A stretch of DNA of 64,000 nucleotides from Bdellovibrionales bacterium (lineage in GTDB: Bacteria > Bdellovibrionota > UBA1018 > CAIMNF01), in contig CANNBJ010000006.1 in the NCBI GenBank assembly GCA_947502835.1, forward strand, positions 62,001 to 126,000, given 5' to 3'. This document shows positions 12,367 through 18,402 of the stretch, one piece after another; position 1 is the stretch's first letter; each line of letters begins with the position of its first letter. Position numbers and translations under genes: made by a program. Below the pieces are notes generated by a model. The model was not told the DNA's origin and did no database searches. It saw only the letters and a list, made by a program, of their open reading frames with translations.

Positions 12367-13428
12367 ATGCCATCCCGGATCTTCGCCCTTCTTTTTACGG
12401 GCTTTCTCTTTGCGTGCTCGAGCGCACCAAAACCTCCCGAAGCACCTCCCCCCTTCCTGTCCCTCGCTCGTGATGCCGTCCAAAGGGATCTGGGGCTTCT
12501 TTTCAGGGACCCTTTTTCCGGGGACCGCCGCATTCCGATCCGATACGCTACAAATCGCGATCAAGAGAGCGCCCGGCCGGGCTCGGCCCTTGTTTTTGGA
12601 GAGGTCGAAATTGCGGTGCCGGAATCCCATGCGATCGGCACCATCGCCTCCACTTTCACTCGGGGAGAGAACAAGACCCTTTCTCTTGAGGAGTGGAAGG
12701 CGACCCTTCTGGCAAACCGGGAATGGGGCGCTCTTGTTTTCATTCATGGCTTCAATGTGGACTTCACCGAGGCACTCTTTCGGGCCGCCCAAATCGCCTA
12801 TGATCTGAAATTCCAAGGTTCGGTCATCCTGCTCTCCTGGCCCGCAGGAAAGGAAGGTGGGTTTCTTGAGAAGACCCTCCTCAACCGGACCTATGAGTCG
12901 AACCAAAGGAATGCGCAAGCCAGCGTCACTGCATTCGCCACCATCTTCCGGGAGCTCGCAGCACTTCCTGTTCCCTACCAGATGATCGTTCATTCCATGG
13001 GCCACCAGGTCGCGCTCCCCGCTCTTCGTGAGGCCTCCCGAACGCTCGAATCCGGATTTCTCCAAGAACTTGTGTTGAACGCTCCCGACTATGATCCGGA
13101 GGAGTTTGCCGCGGGACTTCAGGACCTCGCAAGAATCGCAAAGAGAATCACCTTGTATTGCTCCCAAAAAGACAACGCACTCCTTGCCTCCAAAGCCCTG
13201 AACGGAAAAAAAAGGCTTGGCGCCTGCACACGATACGAGGGTGTGGACGTGGTGAACGTAAGCGAGGTGGATGCCCCCGGAATCACGGGACTCGGTCACG
13301 GGTATTACTCCTCCCGCCCCATCCTTACGGACCTTGCTCAGGTGTTTCTCGGAGTTGAGGCCGAAAAGCGCCTCTTCATCCGGAAATCCCGGGACTCCAA
13401 CTCCGAGCACTACTTTCTCCGGCGGTAA
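12367..13428 (+). CDS. Lipoprotein alpha/beta hydrolase, DUF900 family
   Basis: The product is 353 residues with signal peptide and lipobox (GFLFAC, then SSAPKPPEAPPP). The body matches the DUF900 (PF05990) alpha/beta-hydrolase family: IRYATNRD, VFIHGFNVDFTEALFRAAQ forming the oxyanion segment, the nucleophile elbow HSMGH, LNAPDYDPEEF, and a late histidine in GLGHGYY. It is probably an esterase or lipase held in the envelope; the substrate is unknown. The start at 12367 rather than 12331 is set by the signal peptide and by the promoter directly upstream. A 380-residue ORF on the opposite strand is a shadow. Confidence 0.85.
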   Translation: MPSRIFALLFTGFLFACSSAPKPPEAPPPFLSLARDAVQRDLGLLFRDPFSGDRRIPIRYATNRDQESARPGSALVFGEVEIAVPESHAIGTIASTFTRGENKTLSLEEWKATLLANREWGALVFIHGFNVDFTEALFRAAQIAYDLKFQGSVILLSWPAGKEGGFLEKTLLNRTYESNQRNAQASVTAFATIFRELAALPVPYQMIVHSMGHQVALPALREASRTLESGFLQELVLNAPDYDPEEFAAGLQDLARIAKRITLYCSQKDNALLASKALNGKKRLGACTRYEGVDVVNVSEVDAPGITGLGHGYYSSRPILTDLAQVFLGVEAEKRLFIRKSRDSNSEHYFLRR

Positions 13429-13519
13429 TGCCCTGCTCAATGAAAATCATTTCCGGATTCTCAATATTTCGGGCTGAATCGATGAAAATGAAGTAGAATC
13501 AAAAGAAGGAGTTCCCCCC

Positions 13520-13744
13520 ATGTTTGGAATATCTTTCGAGCACATCCTGATCATCGGCGTCGTCTTGCTGCTTTTTGGTCCCAAACGCCTTCCGGAACTT
13601 GGCAAATCCCTCGGAAAATCCATCAAGAACTTCAAAGACAGCTTCAACGGAATGGAGGACGACTCCAAGTCCCGGGGAGAACGCATCGAGAAATTCGCCG
13701 AAACTGAAAAGGAACCGGACGATCATCCGGAGAACAAATCATGA
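13520..13744 (+). CDS. tatA: Sec-independent protein translocase TatA/E
   Basis: The product is 74 residues: one N-terminal membrane helix (HILIIGVVLLLFG), the hinge PKRLPELGKSLGKSIKNF and an acidic tail, as in TatA. It forms the pore for folded proteins carrying twin-arginine signals. GAAGGAG precedes the ATG and TAGAAT (13494-13499) may be the -10. No tatB or tatC is nearby. It overlaps the next gene by 4 bp, so the three genes tatA, HbpS-like and histidine kinase appear to form one operon. Confidence 0.93.
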   Translation: MFGISFEHILIIGVVLLLFGPKRLPELGKSLGKSIKNFKDSFNGMEDDSKSRGERIEKFAETEKEPDDHPENKS

Positions 13745-14175
13745 AAACCAGCTTTGATCAGCCCACCGTCTCAAGAGAGGCAGCCCAACTCTTGATTGAA
13801 ACCGCCATTGAAGCCGCTCAGGCAATCTCGCTCAACATCAGCGTCTGCGTACTCGACTCCTCCGGACGGATGAAGGCCTTCTCCTCCATGGATGGGGCCC
13901 CTGCCGTAAGTCTTGAAACCTGCGTCAAGAAGGCAAAAACCGCCGTGGGATTCGGAATTCCCACAGGGAGATCCTGGCACGAGTTCATCAAGAATGACCC
14001 GATTCTGCTTCAGGGAGCGCAACACTTGCCCGACTTCATCCTTCTCGGGGGAGGGTCCCCGATCCTTCACGGGGACCGGTTGATCGGAGCCATTGGCGTC
14101 AGCGGCGGACACTATGAGCAGGATGAAAAATGCGTGGCTGCCGCACTCGAAACACTGAAGTCCAAAAACAGCTGA
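13741..14175 (+). CDS. HbpS/GlcG-like (DUF336) haem-sensor-type protein
   Basis: The product is 144 residues and matches PF03928: AAQAISLNISVCVLDSSGRM, KKAKTAVGFG, and the C-terminal IGAIGVSGGHYEQDEKCVAAAL. In Streptomyces, HbpS binds haem and modulates the sensor kinase SenS. Here the gene is followed 3 bases later by a histidine kinase and overlaps tatA by 4 bp. No signal peptide is visible, so it is probably cytoplasmic, unlike exported HbpS. Haem binding and kinase control are inferred from family and context. Confidence 0.85.
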   Translation: MKTSFDQPTVSREAAQLLIETAIEAAQAISLNISVCVLDSSGRMKAFSSMDGAPAVSLETCVKKAKTAVGFGIPTGRSWHEFIKNDPILLQGAQHLPDFILLGGGSPILHGDRLIGAIGVSGGHYEQDEKCVAAALETLKSKNS

Positions 14176-14178
14176 GCC

Positions 14179-15774
14179 ATGACCTTGGGAGCCGGCACAT
14201 TTGATTCCGTCTCGGTGGCTCTCGCACAGCTGGAGCCTCTTCTTGCGAAGATCACGCAAGCATCATCCCTTGAGGAGTTGGTGGCCTCGATCTATGAGAT
14301 TCTGAAGCGGGATTTTGCGTTCAAGTCCACCGGCTTCTATTTCATGAATCCGGACAGTGGAAAACTGGAGCTTCTTTTGGCGGACGGACTCACCAAAGAG
14401 GAAATCGCTCACGCCGAATCGACGGCAATGGAGCGTCACCCGGGCTGGGTGATCCGCAACCAAAAAACCTATCTTGCCAACCTTGAAACCAGCGAACCCA
14501 CCGATTTCCAAAAAAGATTGCACCTCGTATCAAGACTTTACTGTCCGGTCATCTTCCGCGGAGAGTGCATTGGAACCATCGGGGTCGCATCCGGCGAGGC
14601 GAACGCCTTCACGGAGAACCATATCGCGTTCATCGAATTCATCTGCAGGATCGCCGCCATCACCTATGAGAACATCATTCACTCCATCGAAGTGAAGAAA
14701 AGCCGGGAGCGACTCGATCAGTCGGTCGAGGCATTGAAATTCGGGATTTGGGATTGGGACCTGGTGCAAAACCACCTCTACTGGGATGACTACATGTATG
14801 TCCTCTTCGAACAGTCCAAGACACAGTTTTCGGGAAGTTACGATGCTTTCGAAAAAACCCTTCACCCAGACGACCGTGAAAAGGTTCGGGATGCCCTTCG
14901 GGAATGTGCGGATCAAAAAAAGGATTTTGCAGTCGAGTTCCGCGTGGTGACACAGAATGGAACCTCGAAACTGATCGCGGCACGGGCAAAAAGTACGTTC
15001 TCCGAATCAGGGGCCCTCATCCGTTTGGTCGGTGCAAATTGGGATGTGACGGAAATCCGTGAAAAAGAACTCAAGATGATCCAGGCATCCAAAATGTCGA
15101 GTCTCGGGGAAATGTCCTCCGGGATCGCGCATGAGATCAACAACCCGCTCGCCATCCTCCAGGGAAGAAATCACCAGATCAGGATGCTTCTCGAGAGAGA
15201 CCCCCTTGATCGCGAGACCTTGAAAAAAATCACGGGGGACATTGACCAAACCGTTCAGCGAATTTCACGGATCATCAAGGGGCTTCAAAGCTTTTCCCGG
15301 GACGGGAGCCAGGATCCCTACGAGAGAAAACCGCTCAAGGCGATTCTCGAAGACACCCTCTCCTTCTGCTCCACACGCTTCAAGCACCATGACATCCGGA
15401 TTGAAATGGACTCCATCGGGGAGGATCTCGCAGTCGAATGCAGGCCGTCCCAGGTATCCCAAGTGTTCCTGAATCTCCTGAACAATGCCTTTGATGCAGT
15501 TCAATGCCTGCCGGAACGCTGGGTGAAAATCGACGCTCTGGCAAACGAGAGCCGAATCACCGTCCGAATCACGGACAGCGGCAACGGGATTCCAGAATCC
15601 ATCCGGGAAAAAATCCTGCAGCCCTTTTTCACCACAAAGGAAGTTGGAAAAGGCACGGGTCTTGGTCTCAGCATCTCGCTTGGAATCCTGAAATCCCACG
15701 GGGGCACCCTGGAGGTCGACTCCCAGTGCAAAAACACAAGATTCCTGATTCATTTGCCTCGCGCAAATTCCTAA
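14179..15774 (+). CDS. Soluble GAF-PAS sensor histidine kinase
   Basis: The product is 531 residues with no membrane segment. An N-terminal GAF-like domain covers about 15-170. A PAS domain covers about 185-295 (GIWDWDLVQNHLYWDD, PDDREKVRDAL). The dimerisation/phosphoacceptor region has IAHEINNPLAILQG with His318. The HATPase domain shows NLLNNAFDA, DSGNGIP and GTGLGLSI. Autophosphorylation at His318 is expected, but no response regulator lies within the operon. The HbpS-like protein encoded directly upstream may be its input. The 3' end overlaps the convergent M14 gene by 4 bp. Confidence 0.92.
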   Translation: MTLGAGTFDSVSVALAQLEPLLAKITQASSLEELVASIYEILKRDFAFKSTGFYFMNPDSGKLELLLADGLTKEEIAHAESTAMERHPGWVIRNQKTYLANLETSEPTDFQKRLHLVSRLYCPVIFRGECIGTIGVASGEANAFTENHIAFIEFICRIAAITYENIIHSIEVKKSRERLDQSVEALKFGIWDWDLVQNHLYWDDYMYVLFEQSKTQFSGSYDAFEKTLHPDDREKVRDALRECADQKKDFAVEFRVVTQNGTSKLIAARAKSTFSESGALIRLVGANWDVTEIREKELKMIQASKMSSLGEMSSGIAHEINNPLAILQGRNHQIRMLLERDPLDRETLKKITGDIDQTVQRISRIIKGLQSFSRDGSQDPYERKPLKAILEDTLSFCSTRFKHHDIRIEMDSIGEDLAVECRPSQVSQVFLNLLNNAFDAVQCLPERWVKIDALANESRITVRITDSGNGIPESIREKILQPFFTTKEVGKGTGLGLSISLGILKSHGGTLEVDSQCKNTRFLIHLPRANS

Positions 15775-17183
15775 ATTTTTCGAAGCACCGGCTCAAACGG
15801 GGTTCGGAGATCTCCGACTTTGACTTGCCGAGGTTCGGAGGAATATCCGGTCGCCTCCACTTGAACCCGATAAATCCCGGGATTCAGGATCACATGGAAG
15901 TGACCGCTCGGCCCCACCTGCAGCTCTTGAGAGAACGCACCTCCCTCTGCACGGATTCTGATTCTTGCCTGCGGGGGGACACGTCCGTCAGAGCCCTTGA
16001 TTCTGCCGAAGATGGAAGCCCCATCCATGCGAGAAAGCAAGTACCTCCAGCCCTCCCTCTGAGCCTCAACCGTTCGATCCCTCCACCTGGGGTAGTTTGG
16101 CTGAAAGCCCTGCGAGCTCGCATTGACCTCAATCACAAATGGAATGACCTGGCCAACCGCATAGAGCCAATCAAGATCCCCGCCGTCCACCGAATACAGC
16201 AATTCAGGGGCGGTTCCGGCAGTGTAAGTTCCTTTTCCATCATCCTTCTTCAATCGGGAGGCAAGCTCCTTCCCGATCTTCTCCACCACTTCGCGAGTCT
16301 CGGTTCTTTGCCCCTCGCATCCGTAGGGATAGATCACGATTTCACTGTAAGAATGATACGAAATCGACATGACCGGACGGATGGACCGGACATATTCCAT
16401 CATGAGCCGGGTCTCGGGTTCGGATGCCGCACTCTCACCTCGATAGTCCTGCGCGTACTTCGAACCGCTTGATCCGCGACATGAATTCCATGCATAGGGA
16501 TAGTTCCTGTTGATGTCCACCCCGTACCCGCCACGTGCATTCTTCCTCCACATGGAATCCTGACTCCACACGAGGTTGTTTCCATCCACGTTGAACATGG
16601 GAACCACATCGATGACATAAGCATCAAGCCAGTGGGTGATTTGCGGATCCTTCCCGTACCCGTTGAGCAAGGTTTCCACAATGTCCAAGCCAATCTCGGA
16701 AGTCATCACCTCTCTCGCATGGTGCATGGCATTGAAAAACACATGGGGGCGCGAGGGGTGCTCCTGCTTCACATTCTTGGTCAACCGAACGGCCCAAACA
16801 TCCCGTCCCTCGAGGGACTTTCCGATGGACTTCACCTCGGCAAGATCAGGATGGATTGCGGCAAATTGCTTGAGAGCCGCCTCGATTTTTTCCGGATTCT
16901 GATACCGGCTGTCAGGGGCGGCCGCAACCCTGGATGCGGATACGACCATCGGGGAGTATCCTTCAGCCTTCAGCCACTGGAGCTCCCGGGAATCCACAAT
17001 CAGATCGACCTTCTTTTGGTCCAGGTCCACACCAGCCACATCCAGAGACCTGGCTTGGATTTTTTTCATTTCCGCGCGGTAATCCCCCAAAGCAATCCGG
17101 ACCAGGCTTCTGCTCCCGGACTGTGCGAAGGAGTTTCCCCCCGAAAGAACGAACAAAACACACAAAAGAATCTTTGTCGCCAT
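15771..17183 (-). CDS. Secreted M14 zinc carboxypeptidase
   Basis: The product is 470 residues with a signal peptide (LLCVLFVLSGGNSFA). The peptidase domain has the zinc ligands HxxE in NAMHHAREVMTSE, a third ligand in ISYHSYSEIVIYPYG and the catalytic glutamate in IPFVIEVNASS. A C-terminal carboxypeptidase regulatory-like beta domain follows (last 85 residues). It removes C-terminal residues from extracellular or periplasmic peptides. A very strong ribosome-binding site (GGAGGGGAAG) precedes the ATG at 17183, 18 residues inside the longest frame. It is convergent with the histidine kinase gene. Confidence 0.92.
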   Translation of the reverse strand: MATKILLCVLFVLSGGNSFAQSGSRSLVRIALGDYRAEMKKIQARSLDVAGVDLDQKKVDLIVDSRELQWLKAEGYSPMVVSASRVAAAPDSRYQNPEKIEAALKQFAAIHPDLAEVKSIGKSLEGRDVWAVRLTKNVKQEHPSRPHVFFNAMHHAREVMTSEIGLDIVETLLNGYGKDPQITHWLDAYVIDVVPMFNVDGNNLVWSQDSMWRKNARGGYGVDINRNYPYAWNSCRGSSGSKYAQDYRGESAASEPETRLMMEYVRSIRPVMSISYHSYSEIVIYPYGCEGQRTETREVVEKIGKELASRLKKDDGKGTYTAGTAPELLYSVDGGDLDWLYAVGQVIPFVIEVNASSQGFQPNYPRWRDRTVEAQREGWRYLLSRMDGASIFGRIKGSDGRVPPQARIRIRAEGGAFSQELQVGPSGHFHVILNPGIYRVQVEATGYSSEPRQVKVGDLRTPFEPVLRKI

Positions 17184-17393
17184 CTTCCCCTCCAAAGGTT
17201 TGACCTGGAGTGTCTCTGGAATCGAACTCGAGAGCAACTGTTTTTCTCACGGATTTTTTCACGAGGATTCCTCAAAAAGCGGATTTCCCGACTTGTGCCA
17301 AAAGGTCCCGGAACATCACTCGTTCGAAAGCAAAACTCCTGTCGGGATGGCGCGATTTTTGCTCAAAGTCGCAACGAGAAACAGAGGTAACTG

Positions 17394-17891
17394 ATGAGAA
17401 CACAATCCGGCAATTATTTCCGAAACCAAGTCCACTCGAAGGCGCCCCCCCGCACCTGGTACGTTCTGGCGAATCGCACGGACGCAGTCTTTTACGAAGA
17501 CTTCGGGGATCAAAAGTTCAGATTCAAGGAACGCATGAAGAACAAGAAAGGCCACCTAACAGAGGGACAACTCGACTCCGATCGGCCCGGCAGTGGCGTT
17601 TCAAGCGCTGCCTCGGGGAGCATTCGACACAGCCTTGATCGAACCTTCCATCACCACGAACAGGTTGCCTCACGCTTTGCAACCGGAATTGCCAGATTTC
17701 TCTCACGGAAACAAAGAGCAGGCCTTTTTGATTCCTTGATCCTTGTGGCCGAACCGCACTTTCTGGGCCTCATGCGACTGGCGCTCCCGCCTGAACTCAA
17801 ACGCCTGATCCGTCATGAGATCCCGCGGGAGTACCTTGAGGGATCGGATGAGGATTTGAAACTCTCCATTCAAACAGCACTTCAAAAATAG
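17394..17891 (+). CDS. Host-attachment-family protein (PF10116)
   Basis: The product is 165 residues. It opens with TWYVLANRTDAVFYED, continues with RPGSGVSSAASGSIRHSL and HHEQVASRFATGIARFL, and has the core DSLILVAEPHFLGLMR, all typical of the family named 'protein required for attachment to host cells'. The fold is related to the bacterial eRF1/baeRF group; despite the name the biochemical role is not settled. GAGG precedes the ATG. It is transcribed alone and ends at a strong bidirectional terminator. Confidence 0.85.
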   Translation: MRTQSGNYFRNQVHSKAPPRTWYVLANRTDAVFYEDFGDQKFRFKERMKNKKGHLTEGQLDSDRPGSGVSSAASGSIRHSLDRTFHHHEQVASRFATGIARFLSRKQRAGLFDSLILVAEPHFLGLMRLALPPELKRLIRHEIPREYLEGSDEDLKLSIQTALQK

Positions 17892-17901
17892 ATATTCCTG
17901 A

Positions 17902-17936
17902 ACGAACGGGGACCCCGTGCGGGTCCCCGTTCGTTT
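17902..17936. terminator. Bidirectional intrinsic terminator
   Basis: A perfect 14-bp stem (17902-17915 with 17921-17934) encloses a 5-base loop between two convergent genes. The plus side is followed by TTT. It probably ends both the host-attachment-family gene and the CBS gene. Confidence 0.8.
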
Positions 17937-17943
17937 CCCGACC

Positions 17944-18402
17944 TCATCCGAGCTTCGGTCTCCGGTCGGATTCCACTTGGTGCTGTCGGTCGGTGACCTG
18001 GACCAGGACATTCAACTCGTCCGACAAAACCCTCATCATTTCATGGGTGGTGATAATCCCCGCAAGGACTCCTTCCGAATCGACGATCGGAATCCTCTTT
18101 ACCCCGTGTTCCTTCATGAGCATCAGGATGTGATTGAAGGAATCGCTCTTGCGTGCTGTCACCAGAGTTGCAGACATCACGTCCCTCACGTAAACCGTAT
18201 TCGGGGAGATTCCGAATGCACTGGTCGACACCACGATGTCACGATCGGTGACCATACCGACGGGTATTTTCCGCGTTCCTTTTTCCTCAACCACCACCAC
18301 ACACCCCACATGCCGTTCCCTCATGGCCTTTGCGGCCATCTCCATGGTTGCTCCCTCGGGAATGGTGACTACGTTTCGATTTGCAATTTTCTCAAGAATC
18401 AT
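17944..18402 (-). CDS. CBS-domain pair protein
   Basis: The product is 152 residues consisting of two CBS motifs. The first is around NVVTIPEGATMEMAAKAM and GMVTDRDIVV, the second around ATLVTARKSDSFNHIL and GIITTHEMMRV. Such stand-alone CBS pairs bind adenine nucleotides and regulate partner proteins; the partner is unknown. AAGGAG precedes the ATG. The hairpin at 18422-18458 lies only 20 bases before the start, leaving no room for a promoter after it, so expression may depend on read-through. Confidence 0.9.
   Translation of the reverse strand: MILEKIANRNVVTIPEGATMEMAAKAMRERHVGCVVVVEEKGTRKIPVGMVTDRDIVVSTSAFGISPNTVYVRDVMSATLVTARKSDSFNHILMLMKEHGVKRIPIVDSEGVLAGIITTHEMMRVLSDELNVLVQVTDRQHQVESDRRPKLG

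Follow-up and report, generated by a model that had tools for sequence, protein, structure and literature searches.

The window analysed here, a stretch of 64,000 nucleotides from a Bdellovibrionales genome, carries on its forward strand three consecutive genes, of which the last encodes a kinase that begins with a GAF domain of a distinct type:

13520-13744, + strand: tatA (TatA_B_E, 65.2 bits; cut-off 21)
13741-14175, + strand: DUF336/HbpS-like gene, 144 amino acids (PF03928, 104.9 bits; cut-off 25)
14179-15774, + strand: soluble histidine kinase, 531 amino acids, GAF-PAS-HisKA-HATPase_c (Pfam, open frame)
14221-14688, + strand: RHPG-type GAF domain of the kinase (alignment A1, score gap and AF2 model)

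The tatA and DUF336 genes overlap by 4 bp (ATGA) and 3 nt separate the DUF336 gene from the kinase gene, so that the arrangement given in the first-pass annotation was confirmed in its coordinates, overlap, gap and gene families by open reading frames and Pfam. The kinase matches GAF_2 (44.4 bits), PAS_3 (60 bits), HisKA (35.9 bits) and HATPase_c (74.3 bits), and with both HisKA and HATPase_c present it classifies as a two-component histidine kinase. As the next gene downstream encodes an M14 carboxypeptidase on the opposite strand, no response regulator adjoins the kinase within the window, in agreement with what had been annotated before. This M14 carboxypeptidase gene and the Host_attach/baeRF and CBS genes of the window (15771-18402) also accompany the DUF336 and kinase genes at several related loci (L009, L010 and L013-L015). 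The host genome (2.73 Mb, 8 contigs) contains no PF03928 gene other than the DUF336 gene, and tatA is probably co-transcribed with it here; a promoter scan of positions 13350-15900, uninformative either way, found no sigma-70-like site.

Both the DUF336 protein and the kinase are predicted to be cytoplasmic. Within the first 30 residues of the DUF336 protein a twin arginine is absent, and the protein shows neither a hydrophobic stretch (highest 19-residue hydropathy 1.29) nor other features of a signal peptide; a 19-residue hydropathy scan of the kinase, with a maximum of 1.47, revealed no membrane segment. The earlier statements that the HbpS-like protein lacks a signal peptide and that the kinase lacks a membrane segment therefore hold.

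Scanning genome contigs with the DUF336 protein alone yielded 27 loci with relatives, at 15 of which a histidine kinase gene lies directly downstream (L009-L022 and L025); no kinase gene directly follows at the other 12 (L023, L024 and L026-L035). The 15 pair loci include metagenome-assembled genomes titled Bdellovibrionales, Bacteriovoracaceae, Myxococcales, delta proteobacterium and Chryseobacterium. L019, from a Myxococcales assembly, is 99.95% identical over 6.5 kb to L018, from an assembly titled Enhydrobacter aerosaccus, and one of the two titles is probably wrong, that of L018 being the doubtful one; L019 was left out of the alignments A1 and A2, the trees and the counts over 20 loci. 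These 20 pair loci comprise the 15 without L019 together with six that were found later, and make 21 with the window. The first possible start of the kinase lies between -8 and +12 nt from the end of the DUF336 gene in 17 of the 20; in two of the remaining three it lies at 195-198 nt and in one no start was found. Within the host genus the pair is patchy, being present in 6 of 12 genomes. At one pair locus, a FIST N/FIST C sensor protein is encoded just upstream on the other strand (L011:1426-2631), with a further kinase beside it.

Two profiles were built, A1 from the N-terminal GAF domains of 15 kinases (the window and 14 loci) and A2 from the DUF336 proteins of the pair loci. A1 has 17 invariant columns out of 164 over its 15 rows, the RHPG motif among them, and the AF2 model of the domain (pLDDT 91.4) has a GAF fold. 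Among 368 Bdellovibrionota genomes, A2 matches nine at 239 bits or more (next score 75) and A1 matches the same nine at 229 bits or more (next score 59.5). These nine genomes are the window and profile rows themselves, and the independent part of the result is the absence elsewhere: neither the GAF nor the DUF336 protein occurs alone in the other 359 Bdellovibrionota genomes. The nine next-best Bdellovibrionota GAF domains that were compared all lack RHPG. In the phylum of the genome that carries L021 (G104; Myxococcota by title), the GAF was found at 112 bits or more in 19 of 282 genomes and the DUF336 protein at 172 bits or more in ten, each time directly upstream of a GAF kinase. Six of these ten pairs are new and lie outside the profile (L102, L104, L105, L106, L110 and L115). 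When the four profile genomes are taken out, DUF336 is present in 6 of 278 genomes and in all six upstream of a GAF kinase (hypergeometric probability 8e-9, uncorrected for kinship). No pair-type DUF336 without the GAF was seen in this phylum; a DUF336 protein scoring 118 bits (L127) is encoded with a catechol-dioxygenase-like gene on one side and an aldehyde dehydrogenase gene on the other, and with no kinase. In nine of the 19 GAF-bearing genomes the GAF stands without DUF336; the wider flanks show no DUF336 gene at seven of these loci, the other two lie at contig ends, and RHPG is intact in eight of the nine domains. Among 218 genomes of the phylum to which the genome of L020 belongs (G103), one has the pair and one the GAF only. 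No natural fusion of DUF336 and GAF was seen in the loci searched. On plasmids, 364 records had a DUF336 match and none matched the GAF at 1e-5; in the four plasmid neighbourhoods examined, for which the gene tables are incomplete, no kinase was listed beside DUF336.

The tatA gene does not share in this conservation. It directly precedes the DUF336 gene in 3 of the 21 loci, namely the window and two loci of genomes of the same genus by coordinate match (L009, genome G011; L010, genome G008); in L013-L015 it lies about 1.4 kb upstream with another gene in between, and in the other 15 it was not found upstream, the sequence available upstream being no more than about 0.3-1.4 kb in eight of these. 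A tatC gene and two further TatA/B genes are located elsewhere in the host genome. We therefore rejected tatA as a component of the system, and its earlier inclusion as a working element finds no support in view of its adjacency in so few loci, the location of the other Tat genes and the lack of an export signal in the DUF336 protein. It falls outside the conserved unit as a neighbour whose position looks incidental. The order of the three genes as first described thus survives in part: the DUF336-kinase order is kept well outside the strain and far beyond chance, whereas the tatA-DUF336 order is kept in two very near relatives only. A gene order confined to this strain, which the first-pass annotation had named as a refutation, is thus not what was found for the DUF336-kinase pair. 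The durable unit is DUF336 with the N-terminal GAF of the kinase and not tatA-DUF336-kinase.

Behind the conserved GAF, the kinase part changes. GAF is followed by PAS and HisKA in the window, L011 and L021, by HisKA and receivers in L104-L106, and by PAS and HisKA_3 in L110 and L115, and the L017 kinase is a long PAS-GAF chain with HisKA_3; a response regulator gene adjoins the kinase in some relatives, e.g. L020 and L021. Of the nine GAF-only proteins six were scanned, three being kinases and the others ending in STAS, HD-GYP or GGDEF-EAL domains (L164, L167 and L170, none with a DUF336 gene nearby). From the varied kinase parts and the outputs of the GAF-only proteins we conclude that the RHPG-GAF serves generally as an input domain, and DUF336 of the pair type was seen only beside kinases that bear it. 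Pair and solo rows intermingle in the GAF tree, where the pair label needs seven changes; L017 and L102, both with DUF336, have as their sister L103, which lacks it. DUF336 was thus gained or lost several times. Since the GAF occurs without DUF336 it does not need it, and DUF336 looks like an optional rather than an essential accessory subunit. In a quick tree of DUF336 proteins a single change suffices for the 21 pair proteins; this grouping has support 0 and we make no claim of their monophyly. The distances between DUF336 proteins and between GAF domains correlate over 20 pairs (r 0.898, reached in 0 of 5000 permutations), which is also expected from plain co-inheritance.

The AF2 model of the DUF336 protein (pLDDT 90) has NahX (9jth, E 1.4e-12) as its best Foldseek match, among 23 chains of the DUF336 fold at E <= 0.001 of which five are yeast Ybr137w. 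Against solved structures the sequence profile gave 105 bits for NahX, 84.6 for EfgA, 77.2 for OrfY, 67.7 for 4nkp, 61.3 for PduOC and 53.1 for HbpS, which places pair-type DUF336, as judged by sequence, nearer to NahX and EfgA than to HbpS. In a quick tree of 87 rows, a group of 36 (support 81) holds the pair proteins and NahX without separating the two, and EfgA groups with other DUF336s and not with the pair proteins, on few columns and with modest support. K64, H124, Y125 and D128 are present in all 21 pair proteins and S121 in 20. The K-S-D pocket is family-wide, the lysine and the aspartate occurring in 48 of 48 distant DUF336s and the serine in 36, and is therefore uninformative as to the ligand. 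The SGGHY motif is found in 19 of 21 pair proteins and in 11 of 13 near relatives without a kinase, and in none of 48 far DUF336s. At 5 of the 12 kinase-less loci the DUF336 gene adjoins a gene of the PEP-mutase/isocitrate-lyase family, and two plasmid relatives are flanked by a catechol 2,3-dioxygenase and a (semi)aldehyde dehydrogenase gene, without a kinase. DUF336 also occurs within larger open frames, together with an aconitase-family domain beside a PEP-mutase/isocitrate-lyase-family gene (L034:137-1930) and as the C-terminal domain of a frame that also encodes an HgmA-like domain, of the homogentisate dioxygenase N-terminal type (L033:1518-3242).

We consider it reasonably probable that the DUF336 protein serves the downstream RHPG-GAF kinase as a cytoplasmic accessory sensor subunit, acting by docking and under control of a ligand. 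Gene order, spacing, the co-occurrence of both parts and a GAF that is kept while the kinase part behind it varies support this reading. DUF336 and kinase would be translated in a coupled manner from a single mRNA. We infer that an oligomer of DUF336 may bind a small ligand in the pocket formed by K64, S121 and D128 and dock on the N-terminal RHPG-type GAF of the kinase; the ligand state would alter this docking and hence autophosphorylation of the kinase, that being the proposed direction of control. The phosphate would pass here to a response regulator encoded elsewhere; its acceptor in some relatives would be a receiver within the kinase protein itself or one encoded beside it. Given the catabolic neighbours of near relatives, haem is a poorer guess for the ligand than small aldehydes, oxo acids or the iron of those enzymes: an aldehyde or oxo acid is possible, iron rather unlikely and haem less likely still. 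We tentatively suggest a widespread class of two-part cytoplasmic sensors, in which a DUF336 protein recruited from catabolic operons would capture a reactive aldehyde or oxo acid and report it to an RHPG-GAF, which would pass the signal to interchangeable kinases.

The pair had been proposed to be an intracellular haem or redox sensor. Its intracellular part stands, with a DUF336 protein predicted to be cytoplasmic beside a soluble GAF-PAS kinase and conserved beyond the strain, but haem finds no support in the sequence. That DUF336 binds haem and signals this to the kinase is suggested by the family name and by HbpS, which regulates the kinase SenS (PMC4991794, PMC3754957). The haem ligand of PduOC is His18 (PMC4923194); the corresponding position (Q16 here) is histidine in none of the 21 pair proteins, being Q, D, E, R, N, T, A, M or S. 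Of the HbpS iron motif E78xxE81, to which E81 belongs (PMC3754957), the first glutamate is present here (E59) but the second is replaced by V62, and none of the 21 pair proteins has it. HbpS itself has a threonine at the PduO histidine position and still binds haem, and some DUF336 proteins bind it weakly without a histidine ligand (PMC4923194), which speaks for haem; against it, HbpS is among the weaker profile matches. With no haem ligands found by sequence the link to haem looks incidental, and a haem-signalling pair is improbable.

DUF336 could also be an enzyme or scavenger of a metabolite that the GAF senses, the two proteins sharing a signal without contact. The GAF domains that do without DUF336, mostly with RHPG intact, and the near DUF336 relatives in catabolic clusters or in frame with aconitase and HgmA domains would fit this, but the DUF336 gene is tightly coupled to a kinase gene and not to an enzyme gene, and we know of no catalytic activity for near DUF336 relatives; we regard it as unlikely, if worth considering. 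Much less probable is a stress sensor for formaldehyde or other aldehydes of the EfgA type that acts indirectly on the kinase: K57, S114 and D121 of EfgA map to K64, S121 and D128, and EfgA is second best among the PDB structures, but the triad is shared by the whole family, R42 of EfgA is S49 here and EfgA falls in the tree with other DUF336s. Chance, or passive neighbours kept by shared descent, is very improbable, for although the Bdellovibrionota surroundings are partly kept too (M14, Host_attach and CBS), the pair persists while its surroundings change between loci whose titles name different phyla, and what follows the GAF in the kinase is swapped.

Our preferred reading, an accessory sensor subunit of the kinase, has its closest counterpart in HbpS-SenS-SenR of Streptomyces, where a DUF336 protein is likewise encoded with a sensor kinase; its action on the kinase is known for HbpS and proposed here. 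HbpS is secreted and SenS resides in the membrane, whereas the present pair is predicted to be cytoplasmic, with a GAF as kinase input, no HbpS iron motif and no adjacent regulator in the window. According to a passage in PMC4991794, clustering of hbpS-like genes with senS and senR is confined to actinobacteria, and our best reading is that the pair would work like HbpS-SenS but outside that system. EfgA of Methylobacterium extorquens is likewise a cytoplasmic DUF336 sensor, with K57, S114 and D121 reported for formaldehyde binding (PMC8153426), residues that are kept here without being diagnostic of EfgA; as described in a passage of the same source its gene lacks conserved neighbours and it exerts its effect on translation, unlike the present protein with its kinase partner gene. 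The NahX and meta-cleavage-operon DUF336s provide the best match in sequence and fold, but the two plasmid relatives have no kinase and NahX has no GGHY motif. With other soluble GAF-PAS histidine kinases the kinase shares domain order and soluble build, and differs from them in that its GAF belongs to the distinct RHPG group.

Kinases that work with an accessory sensor protein are an already known kind of system, and since no description of a DUF336-GAF kinase pair was found in the open-access PMC literature (titles, beginnings of abstracts and passages), the DUF336-RHPG-GAF pair is apparently undescribed. PMC12889525 concerns DUF3365, a family that resembles DUF336 in name only, and is unrelated. 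The usual annotation of DUF336 proteins is haem-binding or haem-degrading, and for few of them is a role known; where such a protein is conserved together with a particular kinase, autophosphorylation offers a direct readout by which the ligand of a DUF336 group could be found. The pair extends DUF336-linked kinases beyond the actinobacteria and into the cytoplasm and, if our reading is true, would be a second, intracellular case of DUF336 in signalling beside HbpS-SenS.
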